Shown: positions 30,169-61,587 of the stretch, one piece after another
How positions within the stretch are numbered: the stretch's first letter is position 1
Layout: every line of letters begins with the position of its first letter
NCBI RefSeq assembly: GCF_025630775.1
Contig: NZ_JAOSZE010000017.1
Span: forward strand, 124,001 to 188,000
DNA length: 64,000 nt
Direction: 5' to 3'
From: Actinoplanes sp. KI2
GTDB taxonomy: Bacteria > Actinomycetota > Actinomycetes > Mycobacteriales > Micromonosporaceae
Notes under the pieces: model-generated
Told to the model about the DNA's origin: nothing
Seen by the model: only the letters and a program-made list of their open reading frames with translations
Databases searched by the model: none
Position numbers and translations under genes: made by a program

Positions 30169-31206
30169 GTGGCTCTACTTGAAGCTGAAAACTTGACGAA
30201 GGTGTTTCGGAGGGCCGACCGCCGGCCCGGCCTCCCGGCTGCAGTAAAGCACCTCGTACAGCGCCGGTTCACATATCACACCGCCGTCGACCACATCAAT
30301 CTTTCCATCGAGGCCGGCGAAGCCGTCGCCTATGTCGGTCCGAACGGAGCGGGCAAGTCCACCACCGTAAAACTGTTGAGCGGTATTCTTGAGCCCACCG
30401 AGGGTAGCGTCCGGATCAATGGCCGGGTACCGCAGCGCAGCCGGCGCGCGGTGGCTCAGGAGATCGGTGTGCTGTTCGGGCAGCGTACGCAACTCTGGTG
30501 GGATCTGCCGGTCAGCGACTCCCTGTCCCTATTGCGCGACATCTATCGGGTCGACCAGCACACCTATCAGGCACGCCTGCGGAACTTGGACGACGTGCTC
30601 GGCATCGGCGAGTTCATGGGTACCGTCGCGCGCAAGCTCTCACTAGGTCAGCGGATGCGGGCGGACCTGGCCGCCGCACTGATCCACGGTCCCCGGATCA
30701 TTTATCTCGATGAGCCGACGATCGGCCTCGATCTGACCGTCAAGGACCGGGTGCGAGAGTTCCTGCGCAGTCTCCGCGACGACGGCGTCATGGTCATGTT
30801 GACCAGTCATGACCTGGCCGACATCGAAGGCTTCTGTCGCCGCCTGGTGATCATCGACGATGGCCGGATCATCTTCGACGGCGCCCTGGATGCGGTGAAG
30901 GACGAGTTCGCCCGCGAGCGGGTCCTCCACATCCGAACCGCGTCCCCCGCCGACCTAGGGCCGTTGCGGGCGGCCCTTCCCAAGGCTGACGTCTCCGTCG
31001 GAGACACGGCGACGACCGTCTCCGTGCGCTTTGATCGATTCGTCTTGACTGCGGGGGAGGTCGTGGAGGCGACCGGCGCGATCGCCAATGTCGTCGACTT
31101 CAAGCTCGACGAGCCGACCATCGAGGACGTCATCCGCCGGGTCTACTCCGGCGAGCTGGTCCTGCGGACGGGAACGCCGGCGACCGCGGAAAGCAGGCCG
31201 GCGTGA
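30169..31206 (+). CDS. ABC exporter, ATP-binding protein
   Basis: A protein of 345 residues. Walker A is VGPNGAGKSTTVKLLSG (about 55-71), the ABC signature is LSLGQRMRADLAAAL, and Walker B is IIYLDEPTIGLDLTVKDRV with the switch His in LTSHDLADIE. The 50-residue N-terminal lead and the C-terminal extension after residue 250 match the COG4586-type ATPases that work with two paired permeases. I used the GTG opening VALLEAENLTKVF; a TTG eight codons earlier is possible. It couples to the first permease by a GTGA overlap. As the outermost operon of the cluster it probably exports the product and gives self-protection. Confidence 0.88.
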   Translation: MALLEAENLTKVFRRADRRPGLPAAVKHLVQRRFTYHTAVDHINLSIEAGEAVAYVGPNGAGKSTTVKLLSGILEPTEGSVRINGRVPQRSRRAVAQEIGVLFGQRTQLWWDLPVSDSLSLLRDIYRVDQHTYQARLRNLDDVLGIGEFMGTVARKLSLGQRMRADLAAALIHGPRIIYLDEPTIGLDLTVKDRVREFLRSLRDDGVMVMLTSHDLADIEGFCRRLVIIDDGRIIFDGALDAVKDEFARERVLHIRTASPADLGPLRAALPKADVSVGDTATTVSVRFDRFVLTAGEVVEATGAIANVVDFKLDEPTIEDVIRRVYSGELVLRTGTPATAESRPA

Positions 31207-31988
31207 AGGCTTACGCGGCCCTGGCGCGCACCTCGGCGAGAAGCGCGCTCACCTATCGTATGGCGTTCGTGCTCAGCCTTTTCGGCGTGCTGTTCCAGTT
31301 CATCTCGATGCTCGCGGTATGGCGTGTCCTGCTGACCGACTCCTCTGTGCGCGCTCTCAGCTGGGAGCAGATGCGAGGATATCTGCTGGTCGCTTTCGCA
31401 TCCGGCGTCCTGATCGGCCTGTACGCCGATTTCCGGATGATGTTCCGGATCAAAGGTGGCGACGTGGCCTTGGACCTCGTCAAACCGGTCGGCTATCAGG
31501 AGGCGCGTTTCGCCGAGGTGCTCGGTGCGCTCTGGATCGAGATCCTCGTGGTTGCTCTCGTCGGCGGCGTCATGACACTGACGGCCGAGGACATGATATG
31601 GCCACGCAACGGTCAACTGGCGCTTTTCGCGATCAGCATGGTCCTGTCGGTACCGCTCAAGTTCATTATTTTGTACTCCTTCGCGCTCGGCTGTTTCTGG
31701 ACACAGAACTACATGGGCATCCAATGGGCCAGGATCGCCATCGTCAATCTGTTCTCGGGCGCCTTGATTCCGCTCGCATACCTTCCGCACTCGCTCGCCG
31801 TCGTGGCCGCCTGGTCGCCCTTCGCGGGGCTCGTGTCCACTCCCGCGTTGATCCTGGTCGGCGGGGCCACCGGCCGACACGCGACCATGCTCGTCCTGGC
31901 CGAACTGTGCTGGCTGATCGTCCTCTGGTTCGGTGCCAAACTGGCCTGGCGGGTGGCTGTCCGCCAACTCACGGTGAACGGCGGATAG
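31203..31988 (+). CDS. ABC exporter, permease 1
   Basis: A protein of 261 residues with about six membrane helices. RIKGGDVALDLVKPVGYQEARF (22 residues in two halves) at about 83-104 resembles the cytoplasmic 'G.ld..L.kP' element of ABC-2-type permeases of the COG4587/COG3694 pair. The start overlaps the ATPase stop, and permease 2 begins 2 bp after this gene ends. Both permeases together would form the heterodimeric membrane pore. Confidence 0.85.
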   Translation: MKAYAALARTSARSALTYRMAFVLSLFGVLFQFISMLAVWRVLLTDSSVRALSWEQMRGYLLVAFASGVLIGLYADFRMMFRIKGGDVALDLVKPVGYQEARFAEVLGALWIEILVVALVGGVMTLTAEDMIWPRNGQLALFAISMVLSVPLKFIILYSFALGCFWTQNYMGIQWARIAIVNLFSGALIPLAYLPHSLAVVAAWSPFAGLVSTPALILVGGATGRHATMLVLAELCWLIVLWFGAKLAWRVAVRQLTVNGG

Positions 31989-31990
31989 GC

Positions 31991-32782
31991 GTGACCAGGA
32001 TCGTTCGCATATATTTTCGCCTGTTGACCGCCCACCTGCGGGCCATCCTCGAGTACGAGTCCGACTTCTGGGTCCTGGCCGGCGCCACTTTCCTGACGCA
32101 GGTGGTGAACCTCGTCTTCCTGTCCGCCATCTTTGCGCGCGTGCCCACGCTGCGCGGCTGGTCCTATTGGGCGGTAGTAACGATGTTCGGGCTCGTCGCC
32201 CTGACCGAGGGTGTCGGCTCCTTCTTCTTCGAAGGCACCTGGCGCGTCGCCGAAGCGATCAACAAAGGCACCCTCGACTACATGATGGTGCGGCCCTATC
32301 CGGTGGTGCTGCAGCTCACCAGCTCGGAGATCGGCATCAATGGGCTCACCAACATGCTGGCCGGGTCAATCATGATCGGTGTGGCGCTGGCCAAAGCCGA
32401 TATCTCCTGGTCCGCCGAGCGGGTGCTACTCGGGCTCGTCCTCCTGATCAGCGCCATCATCATCAAGCTGGCGATCAACCTGGCCACCAACTCCGTGTCC
32501 TTCTGGTTGAACAGCCCGAGCGCGATGTTCGCGACGGCTATTCATCAAGTCGGTGAGCTGGCGAAGTTCCCGCTGACGATCTATCCGGCCGGTTTGAAGG
32601 TGGCGTTGGGCGTCATCATCCCGTTCGCCTTCATCACCACCTTCCCGGTCGGATTGCTGCTGCAAACCGGCCCCGTCTTTTGGTTGGGCCTCCTGACGCC
32701 GGTGGTCGCCGTGTACTGCCTCACCGTGGCGCTGGCGGCTTTCTTCAACGGCCTGCGTCGCTATGAGAGCGCCGGAAACTGA
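31991..32782 (+). CDS. ABC exporter, permease 2
   Basis: A protein of 263 residues with about six membrane helices. AINKGTLDYMMVRPYPVVLQ (about 96-115) is the same 'G.ld..l.rP' cytoplasmic element seen in permease 1, confirming a related pair. The GTG start is two bases after the permease 1 stop. The gene converges on the NRPS gene with 35 bp between the two stops. Confidence 0.85.
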   Translation: MTRIVRIYFRLLTAHLRAILEYESDFWVLAGATFLTQVVNLVFLSAIFARVPTLRGWSYWAVVTMFGLVALTEGVGSFFFEGTWRVAEAINKGTLDYMMVRPYPVVLQLTSSEIGINGLTNMLAGSIMIGVALAKADISWSAERVLLGLVLLISAIIIKLAINLATNSVSFWLNSPSAMFATAIHQVGELAKFPLTIYPAGLKVALGVIIPFAFITTFPVGLLLQTGPVFWLGLLTPVVAVYCLTVALAAFFNGLRRYESAGN

Positions 32783-32817: not shown

Positions 32818-35610
32818 CTATCGGCGAGCGATCACGTAGGACACCAGCCGAGGAGTATCCGGATCATCGTGGCGGACCACCGTGATGGCGTCGGCCACCA
32901 ACTCGTGCCGGCGAAGCACACTTGATATCTCGTCCAGCTCGATGCGGTGACCGTTCACCTTGACCTGGTTGTCGCGTCGGCCCAGCATGACGAACTCACC
33001 GCCGGCGTTGAGGCGGGCCACGTCGCCCGTGCGGTAGACACGCTCGCCACGCGGACCGGTGACGAAGCGCTCCTCGGTCATCGCCGGGAGTCCGTGATAG
33101 CCGAGTGCTACGCCCGCACCCCCGATGCAGAGCTCACCGGGCACGCCCAGCGGACACTCTCGCAGATTGTCGTCGAGCACCCAGACGGTGGTGTTGTCGA
33201 TCGGGCGGCCGATCGGCACCACCGTGCTGTCGCTACGTGACAGCGGGGTGATCAGCGACCACACCGTCGTCTCGGTCGGTCCGTACATGTTCCACGCCTG
33301 CTCCGCCACGGTGAGCAGTTGATTGGCCAGACCTCGAGTCAGCTGTTCCCCGCCGCACAGGGCCAGGCGCAACCGCACCGGCTCACCGCTCGCCACCAAC
33401 TGTTTCCAGGTGACCGGGGTGGCCTGCATGACCGTGACGCCCGCCGAGGCGATGAGCGCGGCAAGCCGGTGCGGATCGACCGCGTCCTCCGCGGACGCGA
33501 TGACCACCGTGCCGCCGACCGTCAGCGGGAGAAACAGTTCCAGTACGGCGATGTCGAACGACGGGCTGGTCAAAGCCAGAACCACGTCGTCCGCGGCGCA
33601 ACCGGGAGCCCGCGCCATCGACGCCAGGAAGTTGACCACGGCGCGGTGAGGCACCACGACACCCTTCGGATTCCCCGTCGAGCCGGAGGTGTAGATGAGA
33701 TAGGCGGGATCCTCCGGCGCTGTCGCGGCGCGTTCGGCCGGCGGCGGCGAGGGCGGTTGCGGGGCGGACGCGGACGGACACCACCCATCCGACTCGGACG
33801 CGGACGGACACCACCCATCCGACTCGGACGCGGACGGACACCACCCGCCCGGCTCGGATGCGGCCATGATGTCGCCGATCCGCAGCACGGGCAGGGCGGG
33901 CACATTCAGCTCGTCGGCCAGATCGGCGACGTCCGTCACGATCAGACAGGCCTCGGCGTCGATCAAGACGTACTCGGTGCGCTGCCTTGGGTACAACGGG
34001 TCGATCGGCAGGTATGCGCCACCTGCCTTCCACACACCCAGCATGGCGGCGAGCATCTTCCACGAGCGGTCGAGGTGCAGCGCCACCACGGAGCCGGCCT
34101 TGGCCCCGCTCGCTCGGAACGCGCTTGCCAACCGATCGGAAAGGACATTCAGCTGCGCGTACGTCAGAGTGGTGGACCCCGCCCGTACGGCGATCGCGTC
34201 GGGCGAACGCAGGGTGGTCGCGGCGATGAGGTCGACGACACCGGCGGCGCTCGGCGGCGGCGTCGGCGGTGCGGCGGCGAGTCTCTCCAGCAGCTGTCGC
34301 TCCGCCCGGTCGAGGAGCGGCAGACGGCTCACCGGTTCGGACCGGTCGGTCACGGCCGCGCTCAGCAGCGTCCGGAAACGAGACAGCCAGCGCGGCGCCG
34401 TCGGCTCGTCGAAAAGGTCGGCATTGCACCGCACCTCGAAGCGCAGCGCTTGTTGATCTTCGCTCTCGGACACCGTGAGCGTCAGGTCCGTCTCGACGTA
34501 CGGAATGTCGATCGGCACGGACGAGGTGTCCAGGCCGTCCAGCTCCAGCGTCCTCGCGGTCGCGTGATTGAGCATGGTCTGGAAGAACGGTGTCACGGCG
34601 AGACTCCGCTCCGGTTGTAGTTCCGCCACGAGCCGGGTGAGCGGAACCTGACGATTCTGCAAGGCGCCGAGCAGCGCCCGGCGAGCCTGTTTCAGCAATT
34701 GGTCGAACGAGTCCTCGCCGTCCACCTGGATGCGGACCGGCAGCACGTTCATCAACGGGCCGACGAGCCGCTGCGTCTCAGCCCGGTCGCGTCCCGAAAA
34801 CGGCATGCCTATCACCAGGTCGGAACCGCCACCGTGGCGATACAGAGTCGCGGCCCACGCCGCGGCGAGCAGCATCGTCAACGACACGCGTGAGTCGCGG
34901 GCGGATGCGCGAACCGCGGTCAGGGCGGGCCCGGCCAGGGTGGCGGTGGCCACATGTGCGCGCCGGCCGGGCCGGGCGGGCCGGCTGTGGTCCGTCGGGA
35001 TGCTGAGTTGCGGCGGTGCCCCGTCCAGGGCGGCCCGCCAGTAGGCGATGTTCTTGGCCCACTGGTTTCCCGCCGCCTGATCGCGCTCGCTCTCGACGTG
35101 GTCCGCGAACGTCATCGGAAGCGGAGCCGCTGTCCACGTCTCGTCGCACAACCCGGCGTACGCCGCCGTGAGGTCATCGTAGATCACGTTGATGCTGAAG
35201 CCGTCGGCGACGATGTGGTGGACCACCAGGACCAACAGGTAGTGGCCGTCGCCGATCCGGGCCACCCCGGCTCGCATGGTCTCGGCACGGCCGAGGTCAA
35301 AGGTGCGTTCGGCGAGGGTGCGTGCCCATTCCAGCGCCGCATCCAGCGAGTCCGCCTCCGTCGTCTCCCACAGCGGCGTAGCCACGTCCCGCACGGCCGC
35401 GGACAGCTCCCCGTCGATCTCGTGAAAGGCAGTTCGCAGGGGCTCGTGCCGGTCCGCGACCGCCTGCACTGCCCGTCGAAGACGCGGAACGTCAAGTGCA
35501 CCGCTTATCTCGGTGGCGGCGGCGAGGTGCATCGCGGAACCACCGAGCTGTAGTTGCTCCAGCAGCCACATCCACTGCTGGGCGATGGCGATCAGCCCCT
35601 TACCCGGCAT
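32818..35610 (-). CDS. NRPS C-A protein with a truncated adenylation domain (predicted glycine)
   Basis: A protein of 930 residues. The condensation domain (about 1-440) has the active site HHIVADGFS at 131-139. The adenylation domain shows WKAGGAYLPIDPLYP (A2), LIYTSGSTGNPKGV (A3), SFDIAVLEL (A4), NMYGPTETT (A5), YRTGDVARL (A7) and GRRDNQVKVNGHRIELDE (A8). It ends at RLVSYVIARR, before the helix, the A10 lysine and the carrier that should follow. Reading the pocket by eye gives DILQLGMVW, plus Lys from A10; the known glycine code is DILQLGLIWK, so glycine is likely. The missing end is encoded by the gene just upstream, whose stop overlaps this ATG by 11 bp. A 30-bp repeat lies between A2 and A3. 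Confidence 0.9.
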   Translation of the reverse strand: MPGKGLIAIAQQWMWLLEQLQLGGSAMHLAAATEISGALDVPRLRRAVQAVADRHEPLRTAFHEIDGELSAAVRDVATPLWETTEADSLDAALEWARTLAERTFDLGRAETMRAGVARIGDGHYLLVLVVHHIVADGFSINVIYDDLTAAYAGLCDETWTAAPLPMTFADHVESERDQAAGNQWAKNIAYWRAALDGAPPQLSIPTDHSRPARPGRRAHVATATLAGPALTAVRASARDSRVSLTMLLAAAWAATLYRHGGGSDLVIGMPFSGRDRAETQRLVGPLMNVLPVRIQVDGEDSFDQLLKQARRALLGALQNRQVPLTRLVAELQPERSLAVTPFFQTMLNHATARTLELDGLDTSSVPIDIPYVETDLTLTVSESEDQQALRFEVRCNADLFDEPTAPRWLSRFRTLLSAAVTDRSEPVSRLPLLDRAERQLLERLAAAPPTPPPSAAGVVDLIAATTLRSPDAIAVRAGSTTLTYAQLNVLSDRLASAFRASGAKAGSVVALHLDRSWKMLAAMLGVWKAGGAYLPIDPLYPRQRTEYVLIDAEACLIVTDVADLADELNVPALPVLRIGDIMAASEPGGWCPSASESDGWCPSASESDGWCPSASAPQPPSPPPAERAATAPEDPAYLIYTSGSTGNPKGVVVPHRAVVNFLASMARAPGCAADDVVLALTSPSFDIAVLELFLPLTVGGTVVIASAEDAVDPHRLAALIASAGVTVMQATPVTWKQLVASGEPVRLRLALCGGEQLTRGLANQLLTVAEQAWNMYGPTETTVWSLITPLSRSDSTVVPIGRPIDNTTVWVLDDNLRECPLGVPGELCIGGAGVALGYHGLPAMTEERFVTGPRGERVYRTGDVARLNAGGEFVMLGRRDNQVKVNGHRIELDEISSVLRRHELVADAITVVRHDDPDTPRLVSYVIARR
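33761..33850. repeat. Three tandem 30-bp units inside the A domain
   Basis: Units at 33761, 33791 and 33821 contain CGGACGCGGACGGACACCAC followed by CCATCCGACT (third copy varied). In frame they encode a ten-residue repeat, W-C-P-S-A-S-E-S-D-G, three times, in the loop between motifs A2 and A3. The length is a multiple of three, so the frame is kept. Such an insert is not part of the normal fold. Confidence 0.92.
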
Positions 35611-36004
35611 TTCGCGCCTCCCTGATGTAAGTGGCGATCGCCGAGACGGTGGGTTGCTCGAAGAGCACGCCGGCCGGAACCTTCACCTGATAGCTCTTGC
35701 GCACCTGCGCCGCCATGCGCATCAGCTGCAGCGAATGGCCGCCCAGCCGGAAGAAGTGGTCATGGATGCCGACGGAGTCGAGGCCGAGGAGATTCGCCCA
35801 GATCTCCGCCAGGCCGCGCTCCACCTCGTCGCCGGCCTCCGCGTCCCCCGCCCCGGCCGTGCCTGCGGTCGCCGGCGCGGGCAGCGCGGCTGTGTCGATC
35901 TTCTTGTTCGGCGTCAGCGGGAATTCGGTCAGCTCCACCACGGCCACCGGCACCATGTGCCGGGGCAGGTGCCGACGCAGGAATTCCAGAAGTTGCTCCT
36001 CCAC
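35600..36004 (-). CDS. Detached adenylation C-terminal end plus peptidyl carrier protein
   Basis: A protein of 134 residues. Residues 1-42 (EEQLLEFLRRHLPRHMVPVA ... FPLTPNKKIDTAALP) are the last part of an A domain including the A10 motif, whose lysine is needed for adenylate formation. Residues about 55-134 are a carrier with LGGHSLQLM, the Ser being the phosphopantetheine site. No A-domain core precedes them. The GTG at 36004 has AGGGG 9 bp upstream and begins exactly at the helix; a start at 36049 is possible. The sequence is what the adjacent C-A protein lacks, so the two probably assemble into one working module. Confidence 0.8.
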   Translation of the reverse strand: MEEQLLEFLRRHLPRHMVPVAVVELTEFPLTPNKKIDTAALPAPATAGTAGAGDAEAGDEVERGLAEIWANLLGLDSVGIHDHFFRLGGHSLQLMRMAAQVRKSYQVKVPAGVLFEQPTVSAIATYIREARNAG

Positions 36005-36060: not shown

Positions 36061-36336
36061 CTAAGCGGGCGTAGCCCGGTCCGGCGACGGTCTCGGAGGC
36101 GGGTCGGCCTGCTGCTCGAAGAGCTTGACCTGGTCCTCGAAAATCGGGGTCGCCAACACGTCGACCAGTTGTGGAATGGCGTGCCCGGACGACCGTAGCC
36201 CCGCGAGTAACCGCAGTGCGGATAGCGAGTCGCCGCCAAGATGAAAGAAATTCGAGTCGCCGCTGACGTCATCGACGCCGAGGATCTCGACCCAGGCGGA
36301 CTTGAGGCCCTCGGTGATCGTCGGCCGCGTGGTCAT
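36061..36336 (-). CDS. Free-standing peptidyl carrier protein
   Basis: A protein of 91 residues. FFHLGGDSLSALRLLAGL (about 37-54) is the phosphopantetheine attachment motif. The following helix II/III region IPQLVDVLATPIFEDQVKLF is typical of type II PCPs. It is the first gene of the operon PCP, A-end-PCP, C-A. The ATG is set by GGTGGTGGG; an in-frame start 24 bp earlier is less likely. Because no A domain is fused, it must be loaded in trans. Confidence 0.85.
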   Translation of the reverse strand: MTTRPTITEGLKSAWVEILGVDDVSGDSNFFHLGGDSLSALRLLAGLRSSGHAIPQLVDVLATPIFEDQVKLFEQQADPPPRPSPDRATPA

Positions 36337-36729: not shown

Positions 36730-37535
36730 GTGCCCTCAGTTGGCAGCCGCTCGGTGGAAGCGGAGACACCGTTCTGGCCATGGATTTCGCGGTTGGCCGC
36801 AAGGGCGCCGGCTTCGAGGCTGTCGCGGCGGGATTGAGCACGTCGTTCGCGGTGTTCCTGTCGACGTTTCAACCCGGCAGCCTGGAGTCGTTGAGCACGG
36901 GTCCGACGCCGGCCGCGGAGCGATTCACGCGCGACATCCGGACCTCGTGCGCAGGGCTTCCCCCGGTGCGTGCGGTCATCGGCTACTGCGCCGGCAGTGC
37001 GTTCGCCTGCCATGCCGCGGATACCCTGGCGGACGGCGGCCACCGCCCGCCGGTGGTGTTGCTCGACCCCGCGACCGCCACCCCGGCGACCATTTGGGAG
37101 CGCTACGTCGAGGCGATGAACGGGCTCAAGGAGCTGCTTCCCGCCGAGCGCATCGATCAGGAGCTCGCCCGGACGCCGCAGGACCCGGCGGCGGCACTGC
37201 CCGCTTACGCGGCCACGCTCGCCGGAACGTACCGCGCCCTCGTCACCGAAGCCTGTGACCTGCTGGGCGCCGCCGACCTTGCGGTGCAACTAGGCACACA
37301 CGTCGCCGACGCGCTGCATTACCAGGCCGTCGCCGGCGCCATCGGCGGGAACCGCCGCGGCGCGGTCGTGTTCACCTCGAAGGGGTTCGTCCCAGAGCCA
37401 CCGTACGCGCCCGCAGACGTCGCGTTCGACGTGGCTTATGCCGACCTGCTGCGAGACGACGCCGTGGTCCGCGCCGTGGTGGACGCCGTCAGCGCTGAGC
37501 GTGGCCCGCGATCACCCATCGGGCCGGTCGCGTGA
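36726..37535 (+). CDS. Thioesterase-like protein with Cys nucleophile, possible aminoacyl shuttle
   Basis: A protein of 269 residues with the alpha/beta-hydrolase layout of type II thioesterases. The nucleophile elbow is IGYCAGSAFACHAAD (about 94-108), so Cys replaces Ser. The acidic residue is present (VVLLDPATA). Where NRPS thioesterases have the catalytic His before '..LL.dp.v', this protein has AFDVAYADLLRDDAVV, with no His. SyrC and CmaE are TE-like proteins with an active-site Cys that move aminoacyl groups between carriers. This one may do the same for the free PCPs nearby. It pairs with a paralogue at 38624. Confidence 0.7.
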   Translation: MSALSWQPLGGSGDTVLAMDFAVGRKGAGFEAVAAGLSTSFAVFLSTFQPGSLESLSTGPTPAAERFTRDIRTSCAGLPPVRAVIGYCAGSAFACHAADTLADGGHRPPVVLLDPATATPATIWERYVEAMNGLKELLPAERIDQELARTPQDPAAALPAYAATLAGTYRALVTEACDLLGAADLAVQLGTHVADALHYQAVAGAIGGNRRGAVVFTSKGFVPEPPYAPADVAFDVAYADLLRDDAVVRAVVDAVSAERGPRSPIGPVA

Positions 37536-52108: not shown

Positions 52109-52386
52109 CGGGATTCGCCGCCCGTCTCGGCCGCCGCCTCCTCGACGCCGATGGCGCGCGTCACCGCGGTCACGTTCTCCTCGAAGGCGAAGTCCTCGCC
52201 GAACAGATCGTCGATCGCGAGGTCCACGCCGAACCGCTCGTCCACCGCAAGGGTCAACATGACCAGGTGCATCGAGCTACCGCCGAGATCGAAGAAGCCG
52301 CTGTGGGCCTGCGGGCGGTGGCCCAGCAACTCGTACCACACGTCGGCGAGCGTCGATCGAATCTGGGTGACCGTCGGCCGGCTCAC
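52105..52386 (-). CDS. Free-standing carrier protein
   Basis: A protein of 93 residues. GFFDLGGSSMHLVMLTLAVD (about 30-49) contains the phosphopantetheine Ser. Helix III is acidic (LAIDDLFGEDFAFEENVTAV). GTG start with GGGGG upstream. Both ends overlap neighbours by 4 bp (thioesterase before, GT1 after). Its loading enzyme is not evident. Confidence 0.85.
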   Translation of the reverse strand: MSRPTVTQIRSTLADVWYELLGHRPQAHSGFFDLGGSSMHLVMLTLAVDERFGVDLAIDDLFGEDFAFEENVTAVTRAIGVEEAAAETGGESR

Positions 52387-53489: not shown

Positions 53490-54683
53490 CTACCGCGTTG
53501 CGGCGACACCCACGTCGTCGCGCAGGCGAATCAGGAGGCGCTCGATCGCGTCCGGTTCCAGGCTGTCCACGAACGCGGTGGCGGCGTCGCGGGACTGGCG
53601 AGCGAGCCGCTGATACCGGTCGTCGTCGCTGAGCAGCCCACGGAGTGTGCTGATCCACGGCCGCGGGTCCTGCTCCGGAACGCGCCCCTTGGGCAGTACG
53701 GCCGAGGTCGCCTCCGGATATCGCTCGATCGGCCGGACCGGGAGGACGTAGTCAACACCCAGCTTCGACTCGCGCATACCGCAGACGTCCGCGGCGAGCA
53801 CCGGCACGCCACGAAGCATCGCTTCGACGCAGCAGTACCCGAACGTCTCGTCCCAGAGTGACGGCATGACCAGCACCCGGGTCCGGCCATAGATCGCGTC
53901 CATGTCGTCGCCACCGGGGCTGATCTCGATGTTCGGCCGCGCGGCGAGCGCCGCCCGGTCGGCATCGGTCGTGCCCCAGCCCTCGACCGCCAGGAACGGA
54001 ACGTCGGGGAGCGCGTCCGCCATCGCCAGGAAGAGGTCGATGCCCTTGTATTGGCAGGCATTGACCAGCGTGACGTACCGCTGTTCGGCCGGATCGGGAT
54101 CGCGAAGCGAAACGCCGGAGTAGACGTCCGGATAGATCACCTCGGACGGCAGGCCGGCGTACTCCTCGAGGTAGTCGTGGGTGGCGCGACTGATGGAGAC
54201 GATGCCGGCCGTCCGCCGGATCATGGCCGTGGCGCTCTCGCTCGGATAGAACGCTCGCGGCCCGAACGGCAGCTGGGGCAGCGTGTGCACGAGGTAGAGC
54301 ACGCGAGCACGCCGCAACGCGGCGGAGAGCAGCATCATCCCGGGGTCGTCGTTGGAGACCAGCGCGAAGTCGGTCGACGCCGCCTCGAGCTCGCGGGCAA
54401 CCGCGCGAGACAGGTCCTGCGCACGCTCGACGCCGTGCACGGTGACACCCCGGTGCTCGTAGGTGAGCAAATGGTCGGAGCGGTCGATTATCCGAGCCCC
54501 GAGCGAGGTGAGATAGGCGGGCATGTCAGCCAGTTCGCGGTACTGAATCTGCCCCTTCAATGGGGCGACCACGTGCACTTCGTGGCCCTTGCTTGCGAGA
54601 TGTTCAACCACTAGTCGATTCGACTTGTTGGCCCCACCGCGAGACGGCAGGAAGTACATGTTCTGCGCTAGAAGCAGCCTCAC
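53490..54683 (-). CDS. Glycosyltransferase, GT4 type
   Basis: A protein of 397 residues. The N-terminus RLLLAQNMYFLPSRGGANKS has the Gly-rich loop of GT4 enzymes. MPSLWDETFGYCCVEAMLRG (about 270-289) has the E-x7-E motif that binds the NDP-sugar. MshA of mycothiol synthesis belongs to the same family, which matters because an MshC-like gene is in this cluster, but GT4 is very broad. GTG start. It heads a minus-strand run and is divergent from the IorA-like gene. Confidence 0.82.
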   Translation of the reverse strand: MRLLLAQNMYFLPSRGGANKSNRLVVEHLASKGHEVHVVAPLKGQIQYRELADMPAYLTSLGARIIDRSDHLLTYEHRGVTVHGVERAQDLSRAVARELEAASTDFALVSNDDPGMMLLSAALRRARVLYLVHTLPQLPFGPRAFYPSESATAMIRRTAGIVSISRATHDYLEEYAGLPSEVIYPDVYSGVSLRDPDPAEQRYVTLVNACQYKGIDLFLAMADALPDVPFLAVEGWGTTDADRAALAARPNIEISPGGDDMDAIYGRTRVLVMPSLWDETFGYCCVEAMLRGVPVLAADVCGMRESKLGVDYVLPVRPIERYPEATSAVLPKGRVPEQDPRPWISTLRGLLSDDDRYQRLARQSRDAATAFVDSLEPDAIERLLIRLRDDVGVAATR

Positions 54684-54890: not shown

Positions 54891-54908
54891 CCAACGGGGG
54901 GGAAGTAC

Positions 54909-56447
54909 ATGAGTTCCTGCATGGATGGACGCTGTCATTGTGCGTCCGTCGCTGACCTGCTGCGAAGCCAGGGCATTTCCTTCTGTTTCGCGGTTCCCGG
55001 CGCACCTATCACGCATGTGGCGGACACTGCCGGGGCATCGATGCAGCAATTCGAGTGGGCGGTGAATGAGAAGGTCGCCGTGGAAAATGCGATCGGCCTG
55101 TCCTGCATAGGGGTGCGCGCCGCGGTAATGTTCAAGCAAAATGGGTTGAACGTCGCTGCGGATGCTCTCGTCAATGCCGCGACCCATTCGATCGGCGCCG
55201 CGTTGCTGATAATTGTGGCCGATGACGTGGACTGCTCCCGCTCCACGACTCTGCAGGACAGTCGTGACCTCGCGGACCTCATGCGGCTGCCCGTGGTGGA
55301 GCCCACCATGGACGGCGACCTGGACCGCTGCGTCGTTTCCGCGGTACAGATCTCCGAGGCGGAATCCATCCCGGTGGTGCTGCGCCTCGTGGGTCCGATT
55401 CCCCCGGGCGCCGTCGGGGCGCCTACGACCGAACACCGTACGTCCGGCGCGCCACCCGTCGTCAACAGGTCGATCACCCAGGAGCTCACCAAGCTCGGCC
55501 GGGTACAACATCTGCGGCTGAGGCAGGCCACCGAGCAACGCGGGGGTGACGCGCTGGCACCGACCACGGTCTGCATCGAAGGACCCGAGGGGGGCGCCGA
55601 CCCGCACCGGGCCGGGATCGTCGCGTTTGGCTCCGCGGCCGGCGTGGCCGGTGAGGTCGACGCCTGCCGGCTGGTGCTGCGCCGGTTCGGCACGGACGAG
55701 AAGGAGATCATCCGGTTCGTCGAGGAACACGACCGGGTACTGATCGCCGAGGAGCCCATGCCGGCCCTCGAGCGGCGGATCAGGCAACTCTCGATCGCCG
55801 GCCACCAGACCATCGGCCGGCTGACCGGTCATCTGCCACCAGAAGGCCGGCTCGACGCCGAACTGCTGCAAAAGGCCCTGGTCGACGGTCCTCGGGACTG
55901 GAACACGGTGGACCGCAAACCGAGCCGGCTCGCCCCGCACGCCGGATACCACGACCTCTTCGAGGCGATCGCTGATCTGCGGCGTGAGGGGCTCTTCGTG
56001 GCCGCCGACGTCGGGTCGTCGGTCAATCTCTGTTACCCGCCGTACGCGGCCTCCGACACAGCGATCTGCCTCGGGTCGGCGGTATCCGTGGCGAGCGGAG
56101 CCGCCCGCGCCGCCCGGCCGGCCATCGCCGTGATCGGGGACTATGCGCTCCTGCACACGGGTCTGCAGGCTGTCGTCGACGTGGCTCTGCGCCGGCTGCC
56201 GGTGGTCGTGATCGTTCTGGCCAACGGCGTGCAGGAGAAGACTGGCGGACAGCCCGTCTGGCCCGGGGCGGGTGGCCGAGATCGGGACGCGGCGATCCTG
56301 AACGGTCTGCTGGCCGGCGTTGCGCCTGGCGTGCCGGTCGAGGCGTGGGACGCGAGGCAGACCGGCCTCGCCGAGACCACCCGCAAGCTGCGCTCGTTAT
56401 TGGCCGTGGCGCCCGCCGTCGCGCTGGTATCGGATCGCACGGCCTGA
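54909..56447 (+). CDS. IorA-like TPP-dependent 2-oxoacid enzyme lacking the ferredoxin domain
   Basis: A protein of 512 residues resembling the alpha subunit of indolepyruvate:ferredoxin oxidoreductase. EWAVNEKVAVENAIGLSCIG (about 44-63) and KQNGLNVAADALVNAATHS are its Pyr-domain blocks. LLIIVADDVDCSRSTTLQDSRD follows. The C-terminal TPP domain has ADVGSSVNLCYPPYAASDTA and AVIGDYALLHTGLQAVVDVA. The normal C-terminal two-[4Fe-4S] domain is missing, and no IorB subunit gene is near. It may therefore be a decarboxylase or use another acceptor. GGGGGGAAG fixes the ATG. The gene for PCP-C follows 1 bp later. Confidence 0.75.
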   Translation: MSSCMDGRCHCASVADLLRSQGISFCFAVPGAPITHVADTAGASMQQFEWAVNEKVAVENAIGLSCIGVRAAVMFKQNGLNVAADALVNAATHSIGAALLIIVADDVDCSRSTTLQDSRDLADLMRLPVVEPTMDGDLDRCVVSAVQISEAESIPVVLRLVGPIPPGAVGAPTTEHRTSGAPPVVNRSITQELTKLGRVQHLRLRQATEQRGGDALAPTTVCIEGPEGGADPHRAGIVAFGSAAGVAGEVDACRLVLRRFGTDEKEIIRFVEEHDRVLIAEEPMPALERRIRQLSIAGHQTIGRLTGHLPPEGRLDAELLQKALVDGPRDWNTVDRKPSRLAPHAGYHDLFEAIADLRREGLFVAADVGSSVNLCYPPYAASDTAICLGSAVSVASGAARAARPAIAVIGDYALLHTGLQAVVDVALRRLPVVVIVLANGVQEKTGGQPVWPGAGGRDRDAAILNGLLAGVAPGVPVEAWDARQTGLAETTRKLRSLLAVAPAVALVSDRTA

Positions 56448-56448
56448 G

Positions 56449-58098
56449 ATGACGATGGCCGAGGACGAGCTCGATGCGAAGCTCCGCGATGCCTGGCGTT
56501 CCGTATTGAAGATCGACAAGATCGACGACGGTGCCAACTTCTTCATGCTGGGCGGCACCTCGATCGGCCTCGCGCGAGTACTCGCCGGGGTGCGCCCGCC
56601 GCAGGCCGACCGGCCCAGCGTCGTGGAGTTTCTGAGCGCCCCGACGTACCACGATCAGCTCAGCCGGCTCCGCGAAGCCTGGTCGGTAACGCCCCCCGTC
56701 GCGGCACCTTCACCGTCGGCTGCCTCGGGAGTCACCAGGAACCAGCGCAACCGGCTGACTCGGGTGAGTCAGCGAATCATCGAGGGCCACCCGCACGTGG
56801 CGCTGTCGATCCCGGTGTGCTTCGCCATCGACGGTCCGATCGATGCCGACGCCCTCGCCGGCGCGTTGCGGGACACCGTCGAACGGCACGGCGCGTTGCG
56901 GGCCGCGTTCCTCGACCGGGCGGCCCAGCCCTGCTATGACGAGCGGCCGCTGCCGCCGGACTGGGCACCAGTGATCTACGACCGGCGATCGCTTCCGCCG
57001 GCCGAGGCCATCGCGCTGATCGAACAGGCGGCCCGTGAGGTTCCGTACGCCGTGATCGACCTGCGCGAGCCGCCGCTGCTGCACGCCGAGATCCACCTGC
57101 ATCGGTCCGGCGGGGCGGTGCTGCTCGCGTTCGACCACATCGCGTTCGACGAGGTGTCGACCGTCGTGTTCGTCCGCGACCTCGTCGAGGCGTACGGCGC
57201 CCGGCTCACCGGCTCACCGGTCCGCCTGCCGGCGGTACCCGTCCGCGCCCAGGACATCCTCGTCGAACGGGAGCGACGGCGCGGAGAGAAGCTCGATCAG
57301 CTGCTCGCGGCGTGGGACGAGGCGCTCGCGGGCTATCCGAACGCGCCCACGTTCGACCTGATCGACGACGACTCGGATTTCTCACCGCCGGCCCCGGCCC
57401 GGGTCGACCGGATCGTCGCCGGCGACCTAAGTGGCCGCCTGGACGGACTCCGGCGGCAACTGGGCGCGACCGACCATACGCTGCTGTCCGCCCTGATCTA
57501 TCTGGCGCTGCACCGCAGTACCGGCCGATCGGACATCTGCCTGGTCACCACCGCCGCGATGCGCGACTTCGAGCAGGCCGACGACGTGGTCGGCAACTTC
57601 GTCGAACTGATCATCGTCCGGGTCGAGGACGTGTTCGGCGGAACGCCTTGCCGAGCTCCGCTGGCCGACGTCATCCGTCACGTACAGCGCTCCATCTGGC
57701 GCTCGCACAACCTCAACGTGCCGTTCCACGACCTCCTGCAGCGCACCCAAGGTCTGGTCAACGGGCGGACGCCCCTGCGACCTTGGGTCTTCTTCAACCA
57801 CACCGACGACCCGCTCGAGAAGGCCGAGCTGGGCCAGGCCTCCTTCCGCTGGCTGCTGCAACCGGCGACCGCCACGACGTCGTTCCCGGGCCTGGGCATG
57901 CATTCGAAGACCCGTGCCGACGGAGCCGGTGAGATCGCGGTGACGAGCGTCGTCGACCGCTACCCGCCGGGCACCCTGGATCGGTTCCTCGAACAGCTGG
58001 GGCTGATGCTGCGCGACGACCATGATCCGGACCAACCGCTGGTCAGGTCAGCCGGTGCGCCGTGGTGCGGCTGCGCGCCTGCGCCGGTGACGTCGTAG
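56449..58098 (+). CDS. NRPS PCP-condensation didomain
   Basis: A protein of 549 residues. The carrier (about 5-80) has NFFMLGGTSIGLARVL. After a linker rich in Ala/Ser/Pro comes a condensation-like domain (about 105-540), whose active site reads LLAFDHIAFDEVS. The second His of H-H-x3-D-G is kept (DH), while the first His is Asp and Gly is Glu. PWVFFNHTDDPLE and DVVGNFVELIIVRVED are other C-domain blocks. A carrier before a C domain without an A domain means both substrates come from elsewhere. It may form an amide or ester between carrier-bound pieces. Confidence 0.85.
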   Translation: MTMAEDELDAKLRDAWRSVLKIDKIDDGANFFMLGGTSIGLARVLAGVRPPQADRPSVVEFLSAPTYHDQLSRLREAWSVTPPVAAPSPSAASGVTRNQRNRLTRVSQRIIEGHPHVALSIPVCFAIDGPIDADALAGALRDTVERHGALRAAFLDRAAQPCYDERPLPPDWAPVIYDRRSLPPAEAIALIEQAAREVPYAVIDLREPPLLHAEIHLHRSGGAVLLAFDHIAFDEVSTVVFVRDLVEAYGARLTGSPVRLPAVPVRAQDILVERERRRGEKLDQLLAAWDEALAGYPNAPTFDLIDDDSDFSPPAPARVDRIVAGDLSGRLDGLRRQLGATDHTLLSALIYLALHRSTGRSDICLVTTAAMRDFEQADDVVGNFVELIIVRVEDVFGGTPCRAPLADVIRHVQRSIWRSHNLNVPFHDLLQRTQGLVNGRTPLRPWVFFNHTDDPLEKAELGQASFRWLLQPATATTSFPGLGMHSKTRADGAGEIAVTSVVDRYPPGTLDRFLEQLGLMLRDDHDPDQPLVRSAGAPWCGCAPAPVTS

Positions 58099-58219: not shown

Positions 58220-59413
58220 ATGACGACAGGCCTCCGCTGGCAACCGGCGGCCACAGCGCCGCAGGGCATGGTTGCGCCGTCGGTGATCGAACGAGCCGAC
58301 GAGGCCGCCCGCACGACTCTCGACAGGTGCAGCTTTCCCCGGGCCGGCCGCACAGCGTGGTTGCCCCTGGGCGATGGATCCCTGAAGCTCAAGGGAATCG
58401 GGCACTGGGACGGCAGGAGCCCGACCGTTGATCGGCCCAGCTCGCAATCTTTCACCCGGCCCAGGGGCCACGTCGGGATCTGCGAGTCCGGCCGCTTGCG
58501 GGTGGTCGACAGCGCGCCCGCGCCGCTCGGGGGCATCACGGTCGACCGAGCGATGCGGGAGTTCAACACCGCACTGGGCATGTCCCGGCTGGATCCCCAC
58601 GTCGTGCGTCCGGTCCGCGTCTACCAGCTGATCGATCCGCCGCTGCGCTTCCCGACCGGCGACGGCGAGAATTTCGCCGTGGTCGCGACGTTGGTGCCCA
58701 CCGCGTGGCCCCAGCGTGCGGACACTCTTCTCCGCGCACCCGAACGGCTGACCGCCGACGACCGCGAATACATCGAACGGGTACGCCGGGGACGGTCGCT
58801 CATCGACACCATGGCGGAACTCGCGGCCGGCTATGGTGCCGCCTTGCGCCTGTTCACCGAGGCCGGGTTCTTCCGGCACTCCGGGTCGGTCGACAACTGG
58901 GGGATAGCACCGGAGAGCGGGCAGGTTTTCCTCACCGACCTGGACTCGACGCAAACCCTGACCATCGTCGGCGAGGCGCGGCGGCCGGTCGAGGTGCTCC
59001 GTGACGTGGCCAGTGGCGTCTTCGGGCTGGCCGCGGCGCTGATGTTGCCCGGAGTGACCGACGATCCCGCCGCGGCGATCGAAGCCTTTCGGCGCTTGGC
59101 CGCGGGCTACTTCGCCGAGGTGCCGGCCGACCTGATCGCCGAATCCATAGCACCGCTGGCGCGGTATTGGACGCCGCTGGCCGAGCGCTCCTGGGCTGGA
59201 AAGGGAGCCCTCCCGCTGGGTGGAGATCGGGCCATCTGGATGGACCGGGATCTCTGCTACTGCCTGCTGCTGCACGGTCTGTCGGCGGCGTACGCGGCCG
59301 GCGAGGGAGCGGCGAGCTGGGGAGAAGTGGATGTCGACAGGTTGACCGAGGCCACCCGTGAGTTCCTCGGCTCCGGGCGATTCCGCCGTTTCGAACAGTT
59401 CTGCGCGACCTGA
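58220..59413 (+). CDS. Unknown protein, possibly kinase-like
   Basis: A protein of 397 residues; GGAGGAG precedes the ATG. The region RHSGSVDNWGIAPESGQVFL followed by TDLDSTQTL (about 218-246) resembles the catalytic and metal-binding loops of kinase-like folds (H-x-x-x-x-D-N ... D-x-D), and GSLKLKGIGHWDG may be a nucleotide-loop-like segment. Overall similarity is too weak to call. There is no membrane helix or signal peptide. It lies in the IorA, PCP-C, unknown, YczE-like operon, so a dedicated pathway role such as phosphorylation of an intermediate is possible. Confidence 0.5.
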   Translation: MTTGLRWQPAATAPQGMVAPSVIERADEAARTTLDRCSFPRAGRTAWLPLGDGSLKLKGIGHWDGRSPTVDRPSSQSFTRPRGHVGICESGRLRVVDSAPAPLGGITVDRAMREFNTALGMSRLDPHVVRPVRVYQLIDPPLRFPTGDGENFAVVATLVPTAWPQRADTLLRAPERLTADDREYIERVRRGRSLIDTMAELAAGYGAALRLFTEAGFFRHSGSVDNWGIAPESGQVFLTDLDSTQTLTIVGEARRPVEVLRDVASGVFGLAAALMLPGVTDDPAAAIEAFRRLAAGYFAEVPADLIAESIAPLARYWTPLAERSWAGKGALPLGGDRAIWMDRDLCYCLLLHGLSAAYAAGEGAASWGEVDVDRLTEATREFLGSGRFRRFEQFCAT

Positions 59414-59554
59414 GCCAACCGCAACCGGATCGGCGACGTTGCCGTTTCCAATTCGCTCGCGTGTATATGAAGCCGCGTTGATCAAGCAGGAGAAGCGCGG
59501 GATAAATGACGCTTGCCATCCAGTGGGTCACCTTCAACCGCACGGGGGATAATC

Positions 59555-60229
59555 GTGACGAGAGTCAACTTGCCGCGCTCGAAGTATCTGACGCCCCACA
59601 CCATCGGCAGCTATCTGGCCGGCTGCCTGTCCTTCGCGATCGGCGCCTACCTGTTCATTCACGCTGATCTCGGCACCGACCCGCTGGACACCTTCGCGCT
59701 GGGCGTGCTCCGGCACGTGCACCTCACGGTAGGTATCCTGCAAACCCTGGTCGCGATCGTTTGCCTGCTCATCGTGGGAGTCTGGACCCGTCGCCGGCCA
59801 CCGTTGTCGCCGATATTGACGTTCTTCCTCTGCGGCACCATCATCGACATCGAGCGGCGGGTCGACTGGATGCGCGGCTCCGGTTTGCCGCCGGCACTCC
59901 TGCTCGTACTCGCCACGCTATTGTGCGCCTACGGCTCCGCGCTGATCATCATGAGCGGATTCGGAATTCGCTCGATCGATCTCGTGGCCATCACTGCGAA
60001 ACGCCGGCTGGACTTGCCTTTCTGGATCGGAAAAGGCGTCATCGAGCTGACTCTCCTGGGCCTGGGAGTGCTGCTCGGCGGCCCGGCCGGAATCGGCACG
60101 ATAGCGTTCCTCGCGGGCGTCGATCTCATGATTCAGCCGCTGATCGCTACGAATGGGCGCGTGTTCCGGATCCCCAATCACGGCTTGCCGGCCCTCAGCT
60201 CGCCCGCCAGGAGCCGGTCCGGCGGATGA
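59555..60229 (+). CDS. YczE/YyaS/YitT-family membrane protein
   Basis: A protein of 224 residues with about five hydrophobic helices. SFAIGAYLFIHADLGTDPLD followed by TFALGVLRH (about 25-54) is the family signature, and GFGIRSIDLVAITAKRRLDL matches the repeated second half. In Bacillus the homologue yczE is next to sfp and is needed for full lipopeptide production, so a link to non-ribosomal synthesis has precedent. GTG start with GGGGAT ahead. It converges on the MshC-like gene. Confidence 0.78.
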   Translation: MTRVNLPRSKYLTPHTIGSYLAGCLSFAIGAYLFIHADLGTDPLDTFALGVLRHVHLTVGILQTLVAIVCLLIVGVWTRRRPPLSPILTFFLCGTIIDIERRVDWMRGSGLPPALLLVLATLLCAYGSALIIMSGFGIRSIDLVAITAKRRLDLPFWIGKGVIELTLLGLGVLLGGPAGIGTIAFLAGVDLMIQPLIATNGRVFRIPNHGLPALSSPARSRSGG

Positions 60230-60303
60230 TCGCCGCCGCGCATCGCCCAGCAACGGCCGCGGGTGCGACCTCGACTCCTCCACGGCGCGGCTGATTTCGC
60301 TCT

Positions 60304-60387
60304 CTCACGCCGGCCGCTGAACCCTCACGCCGGCCGCTGAACCCCGCTCAGCGCCGCTCTCACGGCGCGGAGGAGGGTTCAGCGGCC
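60304..60387. terminator. Tandem 20-bp repeat and inverted repeat, probable bidirectional terminator
   Basis: CTCACGCCGGCCGCTGAACC is repeated head-to-tail at 60304-60323 and 60324-60343. GGCCGCTGAACCCTC (60312-60326) is matched by its exact reverse complement GAGGGTTCAGCGGCC at 60373-60387. Smaller GC-rich arms lie between. It sits between two convergent genes, where a shared terminator is expected. No T-run is seen. Confidence 0.6.
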
Positions 60388-60402
60388 AGCGGGGTGCTCG
60401 GC

Positions 60403-61587
60403 TCAGCGGCGCGGCGAGGTGCGCGGAGCGCTCAAGTCGAGCCCGAGAACCTCCGCGACCTCGGCCAGCCGATCCCCGCTCCAGCCGGCTGGATCATCGA
60501 GGATCGTCGTGGCCCACTCCGCCAGGACACCGACCGCCGCCGGGAAGTCCAGGTCGTCGTCGATGCGGTCGAGACATCGGACGGCGTACTCGTCGCCGCC
60601 GGGCCCGCGGCCCTGAGCTCGCGCCTGGATCAGGCGGTCGAGCAGGCTCTCGGCGTCGTCGAGGAAATCGTTGTGCCACTCGAATCCTCGCCTGTGGTGG
60701 TAACGACTGAGGACGGCGAGGCGCAGGACGCGAGCATCGCGCTCCGCAAGGACGGTGCGAGCCAGGACGATGTTGCCGCGCGATTTGGACATTTTGTAAC
60801 CGTCATAAGCCACGTGCACCGCATGCAGCCAGATGGAGACCGCCGAGCCGTCCGCCACGCTGCGGTTCTGCGCCGCCTCACACTCATGGTGCGGGAAGAT
60901 CAGATCCTCACCGCCGCCGTGCACGTCGATATGGTCACCGAGGTGCTTCCGTGACATCACGGAGCAGCCGATGTGCCAGCCGGGTCGGCCGCGGCCGAGC
61001 GCCGTCTCGTACTCCGGCTCACCCGGCCGCGACGGCTGCCAGAGCACGAAGTCCAGTGGATTGCGCAGGCCGGGCCGGTCCGGGAAGCCGCCACGCTCAC
61101 GGGCCAGCCGGATGCGCTCGTCCAGGCTCAGACCGAACAGTCGTCCGAACTCGGGATCGGTGTCGACGGCGAAATAGGTCCAGCCGTCCACCGTGTACGC
61201 CAGGCCCTTGTCGAGCAGCTCGCCGACCATGGCGGCCATGTCCTCGATGTGTTCCGAGGCGCGTGGCTCCACGGTGGCCGGCAGGTCGAGCGTCGCGTTG
61301 TCCGCACTCATCTGGGCGATCTCGCCGTTCACCAGTTCCCAGAAGGGGACGCCGACTTCCTGGGCCCGTTCCAGCAGCGGGTCGTCCACGTCGGTGACAT
61401 TACGGACGAGGACCACCTCGGAGCCGAGCGACCGCAACCGGCGGGCCAGGACGTCGTAGAGCAGAAGCAGCGCCACATGACCGAGGTGCATGGAGTCGTA
61501 CGGGGTGAGACCGCAGACGTAGATGGTCAGACGAGGCTTCGCTTCGAGCGGAACCAGATCGCCTGCTGCCGTGCAGTACACGCGCAT
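60403..61587 (-). CDS. MshC-like cysteine ligase (CysRS paralogue without anticodon domain)
   Basis: A protein of 394 residues. YVCGLTPYDSMHLGHVALLL has the zinc Cys and a HIGH-type motif; HIGCSVMSRKHLGDHIDVHG and DLIFPHHECEAAQN give the zinc site and YKMSKSRGN the KMSKS loop. Length and the missing anticodon-binding domain match MshC, which makes Cys-AMP and joins Cys to glucosaminyl-inositol in mycothiol synthesis. It differs enough in its N-terminus (MRVYCTAAGDLVPLEAK) that it may be a pathway-specific copy acting on another amine. AAGGAG lies upstream of the ATG. It closes the cluster on the right. Confidence 0.85.
   Translation of the reverse strand: MRVYCTAAGDLVPLEAKPRLTIYVCGLTPYDSMHLGHVALLLLYDVLARRLRSLGSEVVLVRNVTDVDDPLLERAQEVGVPFWELVNGEIAQMSADNATLDLPATVEPRASEHIEDMAAMVGELLDKGLAYTVDGWTYFAVDTDPEFGRLFGLSLDERIRLARERGGFPDRPGLRNPLDFVLWQPSRPGEPEYETALGRGRPGWHIGCSVMSRKHLGDHIDVHGGGEDLIFPHHECEAAQNRSVADGSAVSIWLHAVHVAYDGYKMSKSRGNIVLARTVLAERDARVLRLAVLSRYHHRRGFEWHNDFLDDAESLLDRLIQARAQGRGPGGDEYAVRCLDRIDDDLDFPAAVGVLAEWATTILDDPAGWSGDRLAEVAEVLGLDLSAPRTSPRR

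Follow-up and report, generated by a model that had tools for sequence, protein, structure and literature searches.

A candidate biosynthetic island in Actinoplanes sp. KI2 combining an MshC-like cysteine ligase, an extra cysteinyl-tRNA synthetase and a recurrent radical SAM module

Enzymes derived from aminoacyl-tRNA synthetases (aaRS) have precedents in the synthesis of bioactive molecules, among them SbzA (altemicidin) and the amino acid:carrier protein (aa:CP) ligases, and self-resistant second synthetase copies are described for SerRS2 (albomycin) and IleRS2 (mupirocin) (PMC9437257). Among releasing enzymes, the beta-lactam-forming thioesterase SulM uses a Cys nucleophile, and a Gln-Cys-Asn motif is tied to that activity (PMC11298585). 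Here, we describe a stretch of 64,000 nucleotides from Actinoplanes sp. KI2 (contig NZ_JAOSZE010000017.1, positions 124,001 to 188,000; the window), in which 28 genes (g28–g55, 30202–61587) form, with high confidence, a single biosynthetic cluster that carries an MshC-like cysteine ligase (g55), a complete cysteinyl-tRNA synthetase (CysRS; g37), nonribosomal peptide synthetase (NRPS) parts and three radical S-adenosylmethionine (SAM) enzymes. Our preferred interpretation, which with all its seven steps taken jointly we put at slightly under an even chance, is that the cluster encodes one pathway, the product of which would be a small molecule derived from amino acids, glycosylated and exported; g55 would add cysteine to it and g37 would protect the host.

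The host genome comprises 10.06 Mb in 201 contigs, and the window lies at the end of one of them (C78). GC content is 0.722 before position 29336 vs 0.670 in 29336–61587, and the mean GC at third codon positions of genes falls from 0.926 to 0.854 across this edge, which adjoins a tRNA-Val gene. To its left the tRNA trio is flanked by g27, for which 51 of the 66 genus genomes, that of the host among them, contain a close match. Stretches from seven relatives with g27 were compared (about 19–20 kb each; 40 kb for G738 and 4 kb for G697), and in five of the seven DNA similarity to the window ends together with tRNA-Val, at 29335, or one base further, while in G739 and G741 it continues for about 80 and 200 bases past the tRNA. 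Downstream of tRNA-Val no cluster gene was found in these seven stretches, except that g28 gave generic matches to ABC ATPases in two of them, and no integrase or phage remnant was recognised in the three open reading frames (ORFs) at 29365–30161 of the window, two of which were tested against PHROGs. The lower GC and the edge at tRNA-Val argue that g28–g55 is a genomic island beside this tRNA. In one relative (G695, L067), a partial second tRNA-Val 3′ end (80 nt, 86%) stands about 3.6 kb downstream, which suggests a hotspot for insertions at tRNA-Val in this genus.

Searches of sampled genomes, in sets of 298 from the order, 396 from the phylum, 394 from the class and 296 from the phylum, together with one pattern scan, turned up no whole cluster related to this one. 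At E 1e-8, g40 matched only itself among the 298 order genomes, and at E 1e-40, g43 gave a single distant protein (33%) besides its own match in the 396 phylum genomes. Plasmid records gave no match for g40 (E 1e-5), g41 (E 1e-60) or g43 (E 1e-40), and g40 was found in 0 of 12 genomes that host related radical SAM genes, a search that had no positive control and is uninformative alone. No publication was found that joins CysRS, FkbH and radical SAM enzymes in a biosynthetic gene cluster, and a literature search, in which CysRS inhibitors were not searched by name, found no CysRS self-resistance gene in a product cluster. The original prediction of one undescribed cluster is supported by the low GC, the tRNA-Val edge, the lack of a related whole cluster in the sampled genomes and the linkage of g54 to the radical SAM genes considered below; its undescribed status rests on genome and literature searches together with general knowledge. 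Genes were called with a codon-model script and scanned against Pfam (all 28 genes) and NCBIfam (26 of the 28, with g29 and g30 left out), with the following assignments (E values or bit scores in brackets).

29261–29335, plus: tRNA-Val(GAC), last of a Gly-Cys-Val tRNA trio and left edge of the foreign block (ARAGORN)
30202–32782, plus: g28–g30, ABC-2 type exporter, an ATPase and two membrane proteins (ABC_tran 1.9e-27 for g28; ABC2_membrane_6 3.6e-45 for g30)
32818–35610, minus: g31, NRPS condensation-adenylation (C-A) protein, A domain without its A10 tip (Pfam, motifs)
35600–36004, minus: g32, A10 tip (NKKID) fused to a Ser-bearing peptidyl carrier protein (PCP) (Pfam, motifs)
36061–36336, minus: g33, free PCP, GGDSL (PP-binding 4.4e-9)
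36780–37535, plus: g34, NcmC-type Dieckmann-cyclase homologue (6e6t, E 2.1e-9)
37532–38578, plus: g35, LLM-class flavin monooxygenase (Bac_luciferase 5.4e-33)
38624–39475, minus: g36, second NcmC-type homologue (6e6t, E 1.2e-24; profile 3.8e-71)
39665–41092, minus: g37, full-length foreign-type CysRS (TIGR00435 over cut-off, CysS_C, tree, residues)
41245–42024, minus: g38, PhyH-type Fe/2-oxoglutarate (2OG) oxygenase (PhyH 1.6e-11)
42068–42442, minus: g39, 124 amino acids, family unassigned, overlaps g40 by 4 bases
42439–43461, minus: g40, nucleotidyltransferase-like (DUF4037 below cut-off; GG...SDLD motif)
43533–44852, minus: g41, HemN/HutW-like radical SAM enzyme (Pfam, NCBIfam)
44878–45630, minus: g42, 2OG-Fe(II) dioxygenase, amino-acid hydroxylase type (2OG-Fe_Oxy_2 2.9e-43)
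45627–47141, minus: g43, SPASM-type radical SAM enzyme (Pfam, NCBIfam)
47128–48600, minus: g44, AmmeMemo-type radical SAM enzyme with an extended start, TTG at 48600 (TIGR04337, 304.3 vs cut-off 220)
48818–49042, minus: g45, free acyl carrier protein (ACP), DSL (Pfam, motif)
49029–50918, minus: g46, FkbH-type glyceryltransferase/phosphatase (TIGR01686, 287.3 vs cut-off 146.65)
50915–52108, minus: g47, GT1-type glycosyltransferase (Pfam, NCBIfam)
52105–52386, minus: g48, free PCP, GGSSM (Pfam, motif)
52383–53459, minus: g49, Ser-less carrier-like domain and Cys-nucleophile thioesterase, GWCIG (Pfam, motif)
53490–54578, minus: g50, GT4-type glycosyltransferase (Pfam, NCBIfam)
54906–56447, plus: g51, IorA-like thiamine-diphosphate enzyme (TIGR03336, 196.7 bits, below cut-off 650.9)
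56449–58098, plus: g52, PCP (GGTSI) and condensation-like domain (DHIAFDE) (Pfam, motifs)
58502–59413, plus: g53, family unassigned
59555–60229, plus: g54, YczE/YitT-like membrane protein (NF052291 1e-18, below cut-off)
60403–61587, minus: g55, MshC-like cysteine ligase without anticodon-binding domain (Pfam, NCBIfam, tree, residues)

Every enzyme family that had been named from the sequence was recovered by Pfam, NCBIfam or motifs; three families had been overlooked, namely the NcmC-type g34 and g36, the nucleotidyltransferase-like g40 and the YczE-like g54. Coding ends overlap by -4, -11 and -14 bases, which supports the overlapping operons that had also been proposed. The start of g44 was moved to about 48600, where it very probably lies, because two relatives that were examined share the extra N-terminal region with its Cys motif, and because the extended form matches TIGR04337 from position 2 with 304.3 bits vs 250.3 for the short form; the start of g51 is probably near 54906. 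The label of g29 as a membrane partner comes from its position and sequence, no family being above cut-off. Neither g39 (Pfam, NCBIfam and PHROG) nor g53 (the same three databases; best solved relative at E 1.1) gave a convincing match, and g40 has no convincing solved relative (best E 0.6). For g51, no ferredoxin domain was matched and no IorB was found among the 28 genes, and none of the 28 matched a regulator, phosphopantetheinyl transferase or MbtH family in the Pfam and NCBIfam scans. Between g54 and g55 lies a 20-base perfect tandem duplication (60304–60343). Beyond g55, type VII secretion system (T7SS)-type genes (EspC-like below cut-off, and T7SS_signal) stand at the contig end (62119–63948), where g58 looks secreted with a variable C-terminus; these genes may or may not be part of the island.

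Beyond the cluster, a search of the genome of strain KI2 found one CysRS (C120; 411 bits vs cut-off 340), one MshC (C116; 637 vs 485) and a single weak, partial match. Since the first two exceed their family cut-offs, g37 and g55 are extra copies. The latter has a class I CysRS-like core with zinc ligands and KMSKS motif kept, and is without an anticodon (tRNA-binding) domain. It reaches 326.4 bits with TIGR03447, below the cut-off of 485.1, which all 11 compared MshC proteins pass (554.4–651.7), and is 40–45% identical to these 11, which share 55–79% among themselves. A 21-row tree was built in which 19 of 23 CysRS/MshC-type sequences fetched from elsewhere than the window were used (L045, with an internal stop, L079, L080 and L082 were left out, and the L076 row has masked residues); the 11 MshC rows form a clade (100/99) without g55, which lies outside on a long branch (1.34). 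The 394 class genomes yielded no sister of g55: 27 others reach E 1e-85, all at 41–47% identity. The three MshC zinc ligands named in PMC9736012 are all kept in g55, and a CysRS-like fourth Zn Glu, found in the seven compared CysRS, is also present, at a position where 11 of 11 MshC have Ser or Gly.

A possible though rather improbable alternative to cysteine addition onto a product amine is that g55 loads cysteine onto a free carrier, as a class I counterpart of the class II aa:CP ligases (precedents in PMC9437257). The locus offers carriers for such a step, since the phosphopantetheine Ser is present in g32, g33, g45, g48 and g52, in agreement with the five separate Ser-bearing proteins, correctly labelled as free carriers, of the original prediction, and only one A domain was matched among the 28 genes (Pfam). 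As in those ligases, an aaRS-like core without a tRNA domain occurs near carriers, but the known ones have a class II core, which g55 does not have, and g55 is nearest to MshC, which transfers cysteine to an amine.

By comparison, g37 passes TIGR00435 (373.6–382.9 bits vs cut-off 340), has the CysS_C anticodon-binding domain (29.3 vs 23 bits), and keeps the zinc ligands, the HIGH-type motif (as HLGN) and both KMSKS lysines (KIAKS). It shares 34% identity with the host CysRS and 51% with its best relative from the 296 phylum genomes, a CysRS of G454, with which it groups at 100/99 in the 21-row tree. In G454, only one match spans the whole CysRS model, with three weak partial matches besides. 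Because the zinc ligands, motifs and anticodon domain are kept and g37 groups with the G454 protein, the most fitting interpretation is a functional CysRS of foreign origin and not a loose ligase. The earlier description of both genes as cysteine ligases therefore holds in kind for g55, which has the Zn/Cys site and no anticodon domain, and is misleading for g37, a complete tRNA-type enzyme. Since g37 is close to an apparent housekeeping CysRS elsewhere and of complete tRNA type, protection or Cys-tRNA supply is the likelier role than free cysteine ligation, and, as with self-resistant copies, an extra divergent copy stands in the cluster with a normal host copy elsewhere.

The G454 locus was considered as a sister cluster and rejected, as 40 kb around its CysRS held no other homologue of g22–g58, a weak match to g55 being the same CysRS. 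No g37-type copy was seen in the 12 genomes hosting related radical SAM loci, where 11 of 12 gave a match at E 1e-30 and the full-length ones had 36–40% identity and at most 264 bits. CysRS genes were found on 620 plasmid records, 502 of them in Klebsiella, and neither of the two neighbourhoods examined was a product cluster.

The extra copies would also be explained by double self-resistance, in which the product is a natural inhibitor imitating cysteine or cysteinyl-adenylate (targets CysRS and MshC), resistant copies of both Cys-AMP-forming enzyme types are carried, g37 replaces CysRS, g55 replaces MshC and neither is biosynthetic. One divergent copy of each inside the cluster, with the host CysRS and MshC outside, is as expected under this explanation, and cysteinyl-sulfonamides bind MshC, which shares the Cys-AMP intermediate with CysRS (PMC9736012). 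We nonetheless regard it as unlikely: the score of g55 is far under the MshC cut-off, in the tree it falls outside the clade formed by the 11 MshC, and its CysRS-type Glu, where these have Ser or Gly, is unlike a simple spare MshC. Similarly doubtful is the use of Cys-tRNA as a substrate, in which g37 feeds a tRNA-dependent reaction of the kind seen in peptide-aminoacyl-tRNA-ligase or cyclodipeptide pathways. The retained tRNA-binding domain agrees with this, and Cys-tRNA-dependent pathways exist (PMC9016710), but none of the 28 genes was recognised as encoding a LanB-like tRNA-dependent ligase, a cyclodipeptide synthase or a precursor peptide (g39, g40 and g53, without a family above cut-off, could hide one), and the host CysRS would normally suffice.

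The NRPS parts include A, C, loadable carrier and releasing domains. In g31, the C domain has an intact HHxxxDG motif (HHIVADG), and the A domain stops before motif A10, the lysine segment of which sits with the PCP in g32, upstream of g31; if both are needed, the two genes would form one permuted module. The specificity code of g31, read by eye as DILQLGMVWK, matches the glycine signature at 8 of 10 positions. Its best solved relative is the linear gramicidin synthase LgrA, with the top score to the second A domain of that protein, which we take to accept glycine. Three in-frame 30-base tandem repeats (33765–33863) within the g31 A domain give a repeated ESDGWCPSAS linker. The N-terminus of g49 is carrier-like, reads GGGPDD and has no Ser, and its thioesterase domain has a Cys nucleophile (Trp-Cys-Ile, in GWCIG).

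Both g34 and g36 are homologous to NcmC (6e6t) over most of their length, and in an alignment by eye Cys and Asp are invariant, Tyr is kept and His is replaced in both, whereas the catalytic His is kept in NcmC and in three of three aligned plasmid homologues. The retained Tyr is the one discussed in PMC10956176. The pair may cyclise by a Tyr route, shuttle acyl groups or be inactive. Membership of an aminoacyl-shuttle family (SyrC/CmaE type), guessed from a GYCAGS motif, was dropped after the NcmC match, although the two proteins may still act as shuttles. A predicted model of g36, built from two sequences, was too poor for use (mean predicted local distance difference test score 54.0). Three of the seven plasmid records with a g36 match were examined, and the homologue lies between polyketide synthase (PKS) and A-domain genes in two and beside an NRPS gene in one; such homologues are labelled "hypothetical protein" in PKS/NRPS regions of Streptomyces plasmids (L047, L048, L049).

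The genes g46 and g45 are a putative glyceryl-ACP pair. At E 1e-30, g46 has a match in 10 of 67 genus genomes, its own included, and a close one only in G727 (54%), which was rejected as a sister cluster because 40 kb around its FkbH gene holds only the g45/g46 pair among homologues of g27–g58.

The radical SAM enzymes g41, g43 and g44 all keep CxxxCxxC. A pattern scan with g43 of a collection of 84,980 genomes, which finds close relatives only, gave 12 loci with 53–63% identity in three phyla, namely Streptoalloteichus (2), Streptomyces (8), a metagenome-assembled genome of Acidobacteria and Bradyrhizobium. A g44-like gene flanks g43 in 11 of the 12 loci (the exception, L020, has only a g43 fragment), a g41-like gene stands beside g43 in seven, and gene calls place a g54-like gene (55–56%) nearby in four, L018 having a partial match in addition. 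The 13–22 kb stretches of these loci held no CysRS, MshC-like, FkbH or carrier genes, and the weak matches were to an A domain in L015, a short glycosyltransferase in L016 and generic ABC proteins in L010 and L019. Since 11 of the 12 loci have either all three genes (g44-g43-g41) or just g44-g43 without the rest, the radical SAM genes form a separate module that was taken in by the island, so that the three enzymes, present as first noted, are less specific to the cluster than had been thought. In L009, L010, L015 and L016 the AmmeMemo-type and SPASM enzymes occur without the HemN-like third, so these two may make up the minimal unit.

An ATP-grasp L-amino-acid ligase with LAL_C2 adjoins the module in Streptoalloteichus L009 and lies about 7 kb on in Bradyrhizobium L018, and a hydrolase and a methyltransferase are common to L009, L017 and L018; the L009 methyltransferase (12636–13370) passes the cut-off for CpaM (corrinoid protein-associated methyltransferase), and L017 (8596–9831) encodes a CdhD-like protein with ferredoxin domains. 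These neighbours hint that the substrate of the module is amino-acid-like, perhaps with one-carbon or corrinoid chemistry. No AMMECR1 or Memo partner for g44 was matched among the 28 genes (Pfam). A precursor of a ribosomally synthesised and post-translationally modified peptide for the SPASM enzyme was looked for and rejected, as no conserved small-ORF peptide was found among the 14 largest groups from the window and 11 of the 12 loci (L020 left out); the small-ORF groups around g43/g44 look antisense or of low complexity, except for a ferredoxin in L012 and L014.

That the module (g41–g44, g54) and an NRPS/Cys cluster are unrelated neighbours sharing the island by chance is very unlikely, because, even though 11 loci in other bacteria have the trio or pair and lack the rest, and some 220 bases lie between g45 and the extended g44, g42 lies inside the module, g36–g40 follow on the same strand, and g54 (59.6 kb) is about 11 kb from g41–g44 (43.5–48.6 kb) across g45–g53, so that module genes enclose others.

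In the preferred pathway, the split A domain (g31 with the g32 tip) would load glycine onto the g32 PCP, and g46 would form glyceryl-S-g45 from 1,3-bisphosphoglycerate, as in known FkbH chemistry. The radical SAM trio g44/g43/g41 and the oxygenases g38 and g42 would build or modify an amino-acid-like unit, and units would be passed between the free carriers, perhaps via the Cys-only cyclase homologues g34 and g36. Joining them would fall to the C domains of g31 and g52, and release to the Cys thioesterase g49. Sugars would be attached by g47 and g50, and g55 would activate L-Cys as Cys-AMP and transfer it without tRNA to a product amine (or a carrier thiol). Finally, g28–g30 would export the product while g37, the complete CysRS of foreign lineage, shields translation; protection by g37 implies that the product or an intermediate would harm the host CysRS. 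The favoured product is therefore a predicted glycine- and perhaps glycerate-containing, glycosylated, exported compound with a cysteinyl unit from g55, in line with the glycosylated, Cys-containing, peptide-like product proposed from the gene content at the outset.

Several points weigh against this interpretation. Without a sister cluster, colocation cannot prove that all 28 genes act together, and the right end of the island is beyond the contig, which stops 109 bases past the window. The residue directly before the second zinc Cys is Gly in g55 but Glu in each of the 20 other aligned rows, so the activity of g55 is itself not certain. The CysRS of G454 is not the sole such gene there, as a second, shorter CysRS-like protein (L086) scores 346 bits for CysRS (cut-off 340) and 382 for MshC (cut-off 485) and falls on the MshC side. 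The glycine code of g31 was read by eye, following GrsA residue numbering, and g34 and g36 have lost the His used by NcmC-type enzymes, so that the Cys-Asp-His triad is incomplete.

Searching genomes for target genes that are duplicated is an established way of finding new inhibitors, and extra copies of both kinds of cysteine-activating enzyme hint at the building blocks or the target of the product. If the proposed pathway is true, a class I synthetase-like enzyme adds cysteine outside translation in a non-mycothiol product pathway, and the g37 copy may point to the target, while the small radical SAM module spans three phyla.

Compared with known systems, g55 shares with MshC the class I CysRS-like fold, the Zn/Cys site and the absence of an anticodon domain, and differs in its product-cluster setting, with an intact MshC elsewhere in the genome. 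Like SbzA and the aa:CP ligases it is a paralogue of aaRS placed in a small-molecule or carrier context, but SbzA and these ligases are IleRS-like or of class II, whereas here a class I cysteine enzyme occurs with a second complete CysRS. Like SerRS2 and IleRS2, g37 is a second, divergent, full-length synthetase, its resistance role being predicted. The radical SAM protein of the AmmeMemoRadiSam system has its counterpart in g44, which passes TIGR04337 but is paired with a SPASM enzyme and not with AMMECR1 or Memo. With FkbH and ACP pairs, g46 and g45 are alike, and the same order is found in G727 (53% and 48% identity), but the methoxymalonyl or tetronate genes that are the usual partners of such pairs are not seen here. 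Also apparently new are the His-less NcmC-type pair, the permuted Gly-type A domain and the Cys thioesterase: g34 and g36 share Cys, Asp and Tyr with the NcmC/TrdC/SlgL-type Dieckmann cyclases of tetramate clusters but have lost the His, with no PKS among the 28 genes, and g49 shares the Cys nucleophile of SulM and has Trp-Cys-Ile in place of its Gln-Cys-Asn.

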